Source of the DNA: Polymorphobacter multimanifer
GTDB lineage: Bacteria; Pseudomonadota; Alphaproteobacteria; Sphingomonadales; Sphingomonadaceae
NCBI RefSeq assembly: GCF_014205635.1
Contig: NZ_JACIIV010000007.1
Span: 123,052-163,732 of the forward strand
Direction: 5' to 3'
Length of the DNA stretch: 40,681 bases
The notes below the pieces were generated by a model, which worked only from the letters and a program-made list of their open reading frames with translations, had not been told where the DNA came from and made no database searches. Made by a program: the position numbers and the translations under genes. Positions 38,087-40,681 of the stretch are shown one piece after another; positions within the stretch are counted from its first letter, which is position 1, and each line of letters begins with the position of its first letter.

Positions 38087-38094
38087 GCAGGGGT

Positions 38095-38124
38095 GCCTCC
38101 GGCGGCTGGGGCCTCGGGCCCCAG
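38095..38124. repeat. intergenic palindromic element, GCCTCCGGCGG type, copy 2
   Basis: GCCTCCGGCGG (38095-38105) is followed by a perfect hairpin (CTGGGGCC 38106-38113, loop TCG, GGCCCCAG 38117-38124) and ACCCCTTTT. It is laid out exactly as the copy after ilvC and likewise sits directly after a gene stop, on the boundary with the compositionally different right end. It may terminate transcription of the deacetylase gene. Confidence 0.7.
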
Positions 38125-38569
38125 ACCCCTTTTGTGGGTGGTCGTGTGCATTGACGGGTCCGGGTTTTGGGAAGGCTGATTGGGCCGTAGCCTGATAGAC
38201 GTGAATGACTGGAATCGGGTATCAAATGGTCATTCAAAATTCTTAAGCCGAGCGGCAGCTTGTGGGCCGTCAGCCGAAGGACTGGTTCTGATCGGCAGGA
38301 AATGGAAAGCAGCCGTTTGTCAGCTAGCTAACAGGGTGGAGTGACCCACGCGTGGCTCTTCAGGCTACCCTCTGAGCTCCTCAGCCGCATCGGTCCGTTT
38401 ATGTCGGTGACCGATAGGGTATACTATCATTGATCACCGACAAACTGACCGCCGACATATCGTTGCTTCTGCGGGGCGGCTGTGATCTCGTCACGATGAG
38501 TGCGTCGGGCTCCAGATTGCAGTCCGACCGTTCCCGGTGTATGTTCTTGAATCGTTCTAGGGAAGCGAC
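38125..38569. other. gene-free segment at the left end of the atypical region
   Basis: No convincing gene. It contains GAATGAC (38203-38209) with GTCATTC (38229-38235), a perfect 10-bp palindrome CCACGCGTGG (38346-38355), and the nested palindrome described separately. Composition is nearer 50-55 % G+C than the DNA to its left. Short open frames on both strands show no family likeness. Confidence 0.5.
38401..38458 (+). promoter_or_regulatory. nested palindrome around a TATACT box: candidate promoter and operator of the three-Cys/TcmP unit
   Basis: GTCGGTGA (38403-38410) pairs with TCACCGAC (38434-38441). Inside is GATAG...CTATC (38413-38428), which contains TATACT (38420-38425), a good -10 box. 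A third half-site CCGACAT (38452-38458) matches ATGTCGG (38401-38407). The -35 region is weak. This looks like a repressor-covered promoter about 145 bp before the three-Cys gene. No repressor gene is visible in the window. Confidence 0.5.
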
Positions 38570-38782
38570 ATGGCTGATGGAAGTGCAATCGAGTGGACGG
38601 ATGCCACGTGGAACCCTGTAACGGGGTGCACAAAGATCACAGCGGGCTGTGACAATTGCTATGCCGAACGTTTCGCCGAACGCTGGCGAGGCATTCCGGG
38701 CCATCCTTTCGAACATGGTTTTGACCTACACTTAGGCCAGACCGGCTCGATCAACCGCTCCGTTGGAAACGTAGCCGGATGA
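38570..38782 (+). CDS. N-terminal fragment of the three-Cys-motif protein
   Basis: 70 residues as read: the intact three-Cys motif (20, 27, 30) and 54 family residues, followed by 16 out-of-frame residues. Its TGA (38780-38782) overlaps the ATG at 38779 of the second part (ATGA), so reinitiation on the second part is conceivable. Confidence 0.5.
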
Positions 38783-39306
38783 TATTCGTCAATTCCATGA
38801 GCGATCTTTTCCATAAGGAAGTGCCGTTCCCGTTCGTCGAGTCCGTGTTCGACACGATGGAGGAGGCCCATTGGCACGTGTTTCAGGTGCTGACGAAGCG
38901 GAGTTCCAGGATGCGCGACTATCTGCAAACGCGTTATGCGGATCGACAGCCCCCTGACCATATCTGGCTAGGAGTGTCCGTTGAGGATGCGAAGGGCGCC
39001 ACGCGCATTAACCACCTTCGCGAAGCTCCGGCCGGTGTTCGCTTTCTCTCTGTTGAGCCGCTGATCGGTCCAGTTGGGCCAGTCGATCTGTCAGGCGTAC
39101 ATTGGGTCATCGCCGGCGGTGAGAGCGGCCCGGGAGCGCGTATCCTCAACATCGATTGGGCGCGCGACATTCGTGACCAATGCGCGCGGCAAGGCGTGGC
39201 GTTCTTCTTCAAGCAATGGGGCGGGATCAGACCGAAGAGTGGTGGTCGCGAACTTGATGGTCGCGAATGGAACCAGTTTCCCTCGAACAAGCATGCGTTG
39301 GGCTAA
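38779..39306 (+). CDS. C-terminal part of the three-Cys-motif protein
   Basis: 175 residues beginning at an internal conserved Met ([14 protein letters not shown]). It keeps [51 protein letters not shown] and FFFKQWGG, all characteristic of DUF5131. It has lost the Cys motif unless joined to the first part by frameshifting or complementation. Confidence 0.55.
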
Positions 39307-40466
39307 TGGCAATCGACGCCGCGCACTACGAGGGTCGCGAACAGGCGTTCGTTAAACACACGTTCTTAGACAAATACCTGCCCGCACTCATCGGAAAAAT
39401 TTGTTCGAGGTACGACGAATTTGTTTATGTCGACGGATTTGCCGGACCTTGGAAGTCCGCGGCGGGTGAAAATTTCGAGGACACGTCGTTCGGCATCGCG
39501 CTCAATCACATGACCAGTCAGCGCCTGCTGTATTTATCCCGCGGGCGCAATGTGCGCATGCGGGCGTACCTCGTCGAAAAAGACCCTGCATCCTTTGCAC
39601 AGCTTCGACAAGCTGCAGCGCGCTACCCAAAGATCGAGGTCACTCCCCTCCAAGGTAAGATGGAAGACCATGCGGCAGCCATCGCTGCCTCTATCCCTCA
39701 GCAATCGTTCTCATTCACGTTGATAGACCCAAAAGGGTTTCCCGCGATCAGTTCGATGATGCCGCTCTTGCAGCGGCAGAACGCCGAAGCGCTCGTCAAC
39801 TTCATGTTCGATTTCGCAAACCGCTTCGGGGGCACTGATCTCATCCCCACTTTAGAGGCGTGGCTTTCGACGGGCGCAGCAGATGATTGGCGCGAGCAGA
39901 TCAGAGCGGTGAGCGGTGAGCAACGTGAGCAGCTTTACGAGGAGTTGGCAGTAGAGGCCCTTAGACGAACGCCAGGCTATGTCTACGCTCCCGTCATTAC
40001 GGTCGATAAGGTCTTGCACAACCGCGCCTTATACAAACTCATTTTTCTGACCCGGCATTCGGAGGGGCTGAAGGTGTACCGCGATAGCGAGCGCCGCGCC
40101 CTTGACGCCCAAGCTGCCACGCGGTCGGCATCGAAAGCGAAGAGGAGAGAAACTGGCACGTTGATGGGCGATTTGTTCGCAGACGGTTCTGACGCCGTGC
40201 CCAACGACCGCAGTACCCAGGTTATTCGACGAAGTCAGGAAGAGGCATCCCGCCGCCTCCAAGCAATGTTAGCGAACGCCGATTCTGGCTTTCGGACATT
40301 GAAAGAGTGCTGGCCGCTGATACTTGCGGAGCTTTCGGTTACTCACTCTTGGCTGGGCAGACAGATAAACGATTGGCGTAAGGCAGGGCAGATTTCAGCT
40401 CCAAGTTGGCCGAGCGAAAGAACACAAATTCCTAGCGATGAGCAAAAGTTAAGATGGAACGCGTGA
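39306..40466 (+). CDS. tcmP: three-Cys-motif partner protein TcmP
   Basis: 386 residues from ATG 39306 (TAATG overlap with the preceding stop). FVKHTFLDKYLPALI opens the family (TIGR04474). YVDGFAGPW (41-49) looks like methyltransferase motif I, Glu91 in YLVEKDP like motif II, and TLIDPKGFPAI (DPKG 141-144) like a motif IV; LVNFMFDFANRF (163-174) is family-typical. A SAM-dependent modification role is inferred, not shown. TcmP is named for its constant neighbour, the three-Cys protein, as found here. The C-terminal third contains a Lys/Arg/Ser-rich linker and a helix-turn-helix-like end (TLKECWPLILAEL...LGRQINDWRKAGQI). Composition near 50 % G+C suggests transfer. Confidence 0.88.
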   Translation: MAIDAAHYEGREQAFVKHTFLDKYLPALIGKICSRYDEFVYVDGFAGPWKSAAGENFEDTSFGIALNHMTSQRLLYLSRGRNVRMRAYLVEKDPASFAQLRQAAARYPKIEVTPLQGKMEDHAAAIAASIPQQSFSFTLIDPKGFPAISSMMPLLQRQNAEALVNFMFDFANRFGGTDLIPTLEAWLSTGAADDWREQIRAVSGEQREQLYEELAVEALRRTPGYVYAPVITVDKVLHNRALYKLIFLTRHSEGLKVYRDSERRALDAQAATRSASKAKRRETGTLMGDLFADGSDAVPNDRSTQVIRRSQEEASRRLQAMLANADSGFRTLKECWPLILAELSVTHSWLGRQINDWRKAGQISAPSWPSERTQIPSDEQKLRWNA

Positions 40467-40512
40467 CTAGGCTGGCGCTTAGCCAAACGGCAGCTCACAG
40501 GTGCTACTGCAT

Positions 40513-40540
40513 GCGCTCTAAATGGCCGATAAGAGAGCGC
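40513..40540 (+). terminator. inverted repeat downstream of tcmP
   Basis: GCGCTCT (40513-40519) and AGAGCGC (40534-40540) form a perfect 7-bp stem with a 14-nt loop, about 45 bp after the tcmP stop. There is no T-run, so the terminator role is uncertain. Confidence 0.3.
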
Positions 40541-40575
40541 GAAGCCGACATTCTCAAGCCCAATCCAATTTGACT

Positions 40576-40681
40576 GCAATTGGGGTGATTCTGTTGAAAA
40601 ACCCTGCTTGATCGATGGTTGATGGCGTGATTCACTCTGCTTGAGGCGAGCGGAGACGGTCTCATGATGGGTGAGCGAACG
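40576..40681 (+). mobile_element. probable left end of an IS1182-type insertion sequence, cut by the window edge
   Basis: GGTGATTCTGTTGAAAAAC (from about 40583) resembles ends of IS1182-group elements as I remember them, and 70 bp later a reading frame with GGAG and ATGATG begins MMGERT, as in their transposases. Only six codons are in view, so the call is tentative; the exact terminal base cannot be fixed without the other end. Confidence 0.35.
40664..40681 (+). CDS. start of a putative transposase, six codons in view
   Basis: ATG ATG GGT GAG CGA ACG (MMGERT) with GGAG at 40652-40655, 8 nt upstream. The frame runs off the right edge. The opening agrees with IS1182-family transposases from memory, but six residues cannot prove it. 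Confidence 0.3.

Follow-up and report, generated by a model that had tools for sequence, protein, structure and literature searches.

The window, a stretch of 40,681 nucleotides from Polymorphobacter multimanifer (contig NZ_JACIIV010000007.1), ends on the plus strand with two genes, DUF5131 (split in this copy) followed by TcmP. Our likeliest, though tentative, reading of the pair is a mobile two-gene system for defence, whose enzymes, both SAM-dependent, would act successively or jointly on nucleic acid, most likely DNA. The analysis itself shows which families the genes belong to, their predicted folds, the residues that never vary, the near-obligate tie of TcmP to DUF5131 and the mobile setting; we infer the cluster, SAM binding, the substrate, the order of steps and the defence outcome. 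To our knowledge no activity is known for the DUF5131-TcmP pair, and no study of its reaction or biochemistry was found in the open-licence literature, which is no proof of absence. The pair is already listed as a phage defence candidate. New here are the relation of TcmP to RlmJ with a kept Lys-Asp pair and a lost DPPY motif, the borderline lyase-like fold of DUF5131, the one-way dependence of TcmP on DUF5131 and the split copy. Together with the one-way dependence, the relations in fold and the retained Lys-Asp pair make a family of 'function unknown' experimentally approachable.

The gene pair and its borders

The DUF5131 gene is present as two pieces in different frames. The N-terminal piece (38570-38782, plus strand, 70 codons) matches positions 2-51 of PF07505 (4.5e-18, 66.1 bits), carries the C-x6-C-x2-C motif described in the first-pass annotation, with cysteines at residues 20, 27 and 30, and ends with a TGA stop at 38780-38782. 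The C-terminal piece (38779-39306, plus strand, 175 aa) opens at 38779, matches positions 72-243 (3.8e-68, 230.1 bits) and carries FVNSMSD, GGESG and FFFKQWG. Taken separately, both pieces score over the curated cut-off of 28.9 bits and the family assignment holds, although not the idea of one intact gene: no single uninterrupted PF07505 reading frame is present in the local DUF5131, and a whole-genome search returned two overlapping matches at this place, one with an internal TGA. TcmP (39306-40466, plus strand, 386 aa) is intact and is coupled to the second DUF5131 piece by the TAATG overlap noted earlier (stop 39304-39306, ATG 39306-39308). It matches TIGR04474 (8.5e-34, 117.7 bits, cut-off 53), has no match in Pfam and contains YVDGFAGPW, the acidic residue 91 (E91) and DPKG, all as first described. 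Its C-terminal part (residues 302-385; 40209-40463, plus strand) would be winged-helix-like, as judged from predicted secondary structure. The tetracenomycin methyltransferase likewise called TcmP is only a namesake of this three-Cys-motif partner.

An uninterrupted DUF5131 frame was identified in three relatives: L006 (Sphingomonas sp. 28-66-16, DNA 88% alike over 1.1 kb), L100 (DNA similarity 81% over 2.3 kb, from 38263 to 40551) and L003. Against L006, 45 of 47 and 164 of 175 residues of the two pieces are conserved, with dN of 0.028 and 0.033 and dS of 0.55 and 0.44; against L006 and L100 together, dN is 0.009-0.050 and dS 0.44-0.79. Both pieces are under purifying selection, and these values rule out a long-dead pseudogene. 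Because both pieces are conserved and close relatives are uninterrupted, the split is either recent or a sequencing error. The single frame of the three relatives also speaks against a programmed frameshift. A second split DUF5131, flanked by two TcmP genes, was identified on a Pseudomonas aeruginosa plasmid (NZ_CP124633.1; L124, 10391-11166); its split lies elsewhere in the gene, after about 180 residues, a further argument against programmed frameshifting. The two pieces may also form a two-piece protein coupled via the ATGA overlap, although many intact relatives also have a Met at the place of the overlap (19 of the 54 motif-bearing rows among 57). The local copy matters only as a member of its family, and its split makes it a poor subject for bench work.

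The module is preceded by a non-coding leader (38263-38569, plus strand) that aligns with L100 and L006. Since similarity to L100 begins at 38263, the mobile unit takes in this leader of about 300 bases. Within it lies an inverted repeat with 14-base arms (38402-38442), which, from the three sequences compared, may be an operator or an RNA stem; the L100 leader has a comparable repeat and L006 a weaker one, with one position changed on both arms. The 'palindromic promoter' proposed earlier is therefore retained as a palindrome, whereas no sigma-70-like promoter was found in the leader (0 against 1.1 expected in shuffles). The G+C content is 0.565 over 38263-40466 against 0.654 upstream, and the lowest value for an equal-length stretch elsewhere in the window is 0.610 (steps of 50), in agreement with the low-G+C island first described. 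The contig ends with the window, 215 bases past TcmP, so the right junction is out of view. The last 95 bases or so (40587-40681) recur at five other sites of the genome in copies of 92-109 bases, all of them at contig ends, which is how an insertion sequence would show. The adjacent IS of the first-pass annotation is thus probably represented by this repeat, which behaves like an IS end, but no transposase was seen. To the left of the module is an allantoinase PuuE-like gene, with a score under that model's cut-off. Directly after this gene stands a REP-like palindromic repeat (38094-38138), many copies of which, of about 35-70 bases and often in inverted pairs about 90 bases apart, occur in this genome and in several of the genus. 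In an empty-site comparison, the PuuE-like gene was matched over a long stretch in 6 of the 23 other genomes of the genus and module DNA in 2 of them, as a long stretch in only one.

Predicted folds and conserved residues

For the AlphaFold2 model of TcmP (37 sequences, pLDDT 91.4), all six top PDB matches are E. coli RlmJ (E 1.4e-5 to 3.2e-5; TM, normalised by query length, 0.34-0.41), and profile comparison with RlmJ gave 95.5 and 96.1% against 0.0 and 0.6% for controls. The class I methyltransferase fold suggested for TcmP is supported by both results and is predicted to be RlmJ-like. A sequence search of the PDB with the TcmP alignment gave four matches, at E 0.5 or worse. In the profile alignment, Lys17 and Asp141 of TcmP fall on RlmJ's Lys and on the Asp of its DPPY motif, and this pair is invariant in 38/38 and 37/37 TcmP rows. 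The two RlmJ residues are K18 and D164 in E. coli, where their mutation to Ala abolishes activity (PMC3814359). The DPPY motif itself occurs in none of the TcmP rows (0/38 and 0/37; 75 rows of two alignments, with overlapping rows). Residue 91 is Glu or Asp in 38/38 and is aligned with the motif-II Glu that holds the SAM ribose; the residues of the window TcmP in conserved places are K17, D43, G47, E91 and D141. A related long TcmP reached 19.5 bits with PF22560 (GMT-wHTH), under the cut-off of 27. Mean column identity is 17% for TcmP against 52% for DUF5131.

The three cysteines and GGE of DUF5131 are invariant in 57/57 rows. The AlphaFold2 model was made for L003, the closest intact relative (57 sequences, pLDDT 90.8), and its six best PDB matches are all spore photoproduct lyase, a radical SAM enzyme of DNA repair (probability 0.97-1.00, E 1.3e-3 to 1.2e-2, TM 0.44-0.48, rmsd 5.7-10.4). 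No PDB match reached E 0.001 or better, and unrelated TIM barrels rank after the lyase. The lyase fold put forward in the first-pass annotation is therefore supported at a borderline level. A sequence search of the PDB with the DUF5131 alignment gave no match. With hhalign, the comparison to the lyase family gave 0.7%, a weak test in which two of the seven lyase frames had no Cys motif and were possibly wrong frames, and the Cys motif was the only stretch aligned. Full-length DUF5131 proteins match TIGR04471, a radical SAM model, with E down to 2.8e-28 over positions 11-196 of 220, the best score being 98.9 bits against a cut-off of 355; the C-terminal piece of the window matches it at 1.3e-14, also under the cut-off. 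The suggestion of a radical-SAM-like enzyme is consistent with this match. A single-protein scan of genome contigs identified five relatives. In the host's order the open frames of paired DUF5131 genes span 243-298 aa (27 places, without the window's own genome), and many unpaired ones are longer. The DUF5131 protein of Gordonia phage Jablanski (L130, 7079-7828) scored 23.0 bits with Pfam GP88, against a cut-off of 24.4, and the phage families DUF5131 and GP88 may be related.

Pairing, carriers and neighbouring genes

The family is widespread: of 296 genomes in the host's order, 29 have a TcmP above the cut-off, as do 24 of 398 in a phylum survey; DUF5131 was identified in 47 and 40, respectively. 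Weaker TIGR04474 matches (17 further genomes in the order, 30 in the phylum) were excluded; the only one examined, L038, is RlmJ. DUF5131 is adjacent by position in 28 of the 29 and in all 24 TcmP genomes, or in 50 of 51, two genomes (the window's own included) being common to both surveys; the exception (G123, in the order) has TcmP and DUF5131 each at a contig end. When neighbourhoods were read with profiles built for this analysis, both genes stood side by side in 59 of 60 loci (own genome left out), the remaining one ending at a contig edge. Gene order in the 59 pairs was DUF5131 first in 34, TcmP first in 10, convergent in 15 and divergent in none, with a second TcmP in 5. Two TcmP genes beside one DUF5131 were identified in L077, L104, L108, L112 and L124, and in L258 and L261; usually one is long and one short, or they differ otherwise, and the long ones often have DQxx instead of DPxG. 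Distances among TcmPs follow those among their partner DUF5131s (Mantel r 0.39, a value that none of 999 permutations reached), a correlation to which host kinship contributes. The dependence is one-way: TcmP is nearly always paired and DUF5131 is often found without TcmP.

The mobile setting first proposed is supported by pairs on plasmids and prophages, in some cases adjoining defence genes. Two TcmP queries matched 29 and 60 of 72,556 plasmid records. Among 50,697 phage records, the DUF5131 piece matched 157, the window TcmP 4 and a short TcmP 5. On viral contigs, for whose scan the TcmP alignment was too diverse, TcmP was detectable at 33 of the best 80 of at least 595 DUF5131 loci. Some plasmid-borne pairs have conjugation or integrative-element genes nearby, and a pair on a Phaeobacter plasmid has a dGTPase gene directly beside it. 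Two Gordonia phages, Jablanski and BaxterFox, have a convergent pair between integrase and immunity repressor. In the BaxterFox record (L259, 32212-32961) the plus-strand DUF5131 is annotated as two small opposite-strand genes, probably a misannotation. Stand-alone phage DUF5131 genes were read in six neighbourhoods, hand-picked from the 157 records: three have recombination genes (RecE/RecT, or Erf with exonuclease VIII and SSB), five have a gene for a DNA methyltransferase or 'methylase', which in one case sits at the very edge of the stretch read, and none has a TcmP within about 4.5 kb. These recombination and methyltransferase neighbours point to DNA. An ASCH-domain gene lies near DUF5131 in PhiCh1 (L279) and adjoins it in vB_MseS-P1 (L281), that is, in two of the six phages.

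On Sinorhizobium meliloti pSymA the order is DUF5131, a long TcmP, a short convergent TcmP and last a helicase of 845 aa, which PDC-S28 matches at E 0; in Sinorhizobium the family thus adjoins an hna-like helicase. A table of putative transcriptional units in PMC12445080 lists SMa2243 TcmP straight after SMa2245 hna, a phage-defence helicase. The pSymA locus is presumably this SMa2243/SMa2245 locus.

PADLOC-DB 2.0.0 (2023) already models DUF5131 as PDC-M30B and PDC-M41B and a TcmP-like partner as PDC-M41A, and the pair is not the undescribed system it was first taken for. PDC-M41B matches the C-terminal DUF5131 piece at 3.4e-70 and the N-terminal piece at 6.9e-21, and PDC-M30B matches the two at 4.4e-68 and 7.2e-21. 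PDC-M41A matches TcmP weakly and in part (2.1e-4, residues 21-145), and PDC-M30A has no match in the window TcmP. According to PMC10855318, PDC candidates were identified by 'guilt-by-embedding', and in a panel of 100 P. aeruginosa strains 32 were predicted to carry PDC-M30; of these 32, 68.8% were phage resistant, a correlation only.

Neighbours of the pair were scanned in 48 loci (250 proteins of at least 80 aa within three ORFs, in two halves of 125) and compared with 125 control proteins taken at set positions in other parts of those genomes. PADLOC families at 1e-8 numbered 139 and 24 in the two halves against 20 in the control, and component names at E 1e-30 or better, among the matches listed, at least 11 and 4 against 2. 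Fisher's test of at least 15/250 against 2/125 gave p 0.04, the counts being names and not proteins and taken among the matches listed, and the excess is suggestive only. The signal sits in the first half, all of one order, and comprises GajB of Gabija, DarG, a TIR effector, type I and IIG restriction, a reverse transcriptase system and SoFic; the enrichment near defence genes anticipated earlier is therefore clear in that order but barely above control beyond it. Housekeeping genes are also common among neighbours, and of ten chosen neighbours scanned singly, five were without a PADLOC match at 1e-5. Deaminase-type neighbours comprise dCTPase in 2 and dCMP_cyt_deam_1 in 2 of 125.

Possible functions and likeness to known systems

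In the favoured reading, DUF5131 would bind a 4Fe-4S cluster via C-x6-C-x2-C, cleave SAM to a radical and take hydrogen from a base. TcmP would hold SAM in an RlmJ-like pocket, its Lys17-Asp141 pair would activate an amino group, and long forms would grip nucleic acid with the C-terminal winged-helix-like domain. The altered base would then hinder incoming phages or plasmids. For the local copy to be functional, its split would have to be bypassed or be a sequencing error. The hna-like neighbourhood, the slot in a prophage and the listing in PADLOC make defence the likeliest purpose, but none of them is an activity test. Against this reading count the borderline lyase E-values, the hhalign result of 0.7%, the non-canonical Cys spacing and the lost DPPY, as well as the 4 against 2 strong PADLOC names beyond the one order, the housekeeping neighbours and the local split. 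In a bolder and unlikely form of it, an RlmJ-like TcmP (DPPY lost, Lys-Asp kept) and a lyase-fold DUF5131 would together place a base modification on invading DNA, or place it and remove it again, an immunity chemistry that would be new. If true, defence would here be carried out by two SAM enzymes and no nuclease, with the fast-evolving TcmP choosing or marking the target.

Carriage on mobile elements also fits self-protection, in which the pair would modify or repair the DNA of its carrier element against restriction or damage. This is a rather doubtful alternative, yet one with which the plasmid records (29 and 60 for the two TcmP queries), the phages, the stand-alone DUF5131 genes in phage replication and recombination clusters and the lyase-like fold agree. 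Many pairs are chromosomal, however, and some adjoin defence genes, and both the integrase-repressor slot and the hna-like neighbourhood fit defence better. The one-way dependence likewise fits two explanations, a two-step reaction whose second step relies on the first or a harmful enzyme kept in check by an antidote. Under the latter, TcmP would mark nucleic acid harmfully and DUF5131 would reverse the mark, and infection or loss of the element would upset the balance. That TcmP is practically never without DUF5131 and the converse is frequent (29 against 47 genomes in the order, 24 against 40 in the phylum) is expected of a harmful gene and its antidote, and the nearest fold of DUF5131 is that of a lesion-reversing enzyme. 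A TcmP that relies on what DUF5131 produces would show the same dependence, though. Moreover, 15 of 59 pairs are convergent, an arrangement unusual for toxin-antitoxin pairs, and a conserved DUF5131 beside a diverse TcmP (52% against 17%) is the reverse of expectation, which leaves an antidote unlikely. Viperins are radical SAM defence enzymes of the small-molecule kind, and a viperin-like pair that makes or destroys a nucleotide or other metabolite instead of acting on a polymer would suit the adjoining dGTPase gene of the Phaeobacter plasmid and the deaminase-type neighbours (dCTPase and dCMP_cyt_deam_1, 2 each of 125), but is improbable, given that the nearest folds act on DNA or RNA and that long TcmPs have a winged-helix-like end.

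The proposed two-enzyme system acting on nucleic acid can be placed beside several known systems. With PDC-M41 and PDC-M30 of PADLOC it shares the strong matches of the DUF5131 pieces to the B models and the adjacency of the genes; it differs in the local split and in the partial and weak match of TcmP (2.1e-4). TcmP belongs with TIGR04474 (117.7 bits against 53), although most members are distant from the window sequence (17% mean column identity). DUF5131 aligns with the radical SAM mobile pair protein A of TIGR04471 over 11-196 of 220, but is far under its cut-off (98.9 against 355) and has a different partner gene. It has the three conserved cysteines of the radical SAM superfamily (57/57 rows) in the unusual spacing C-x6-C-x2-C. 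Spore photoproduct lyase gave the six best PDB matches of its model, with borderline E-values, whereas the lyase motif is CX3CX2C and hhalign gave 0.7%. Finally, TcmP shares with RlmJ, the 23S rRNA m6A2030 methyltransferase, the predicted fold, the Lys-Asp pair and the acidic motif II residue, and differs from it in being without DPPY and without a Pfam match and in having an extra C-terminal domain and a partner gene.
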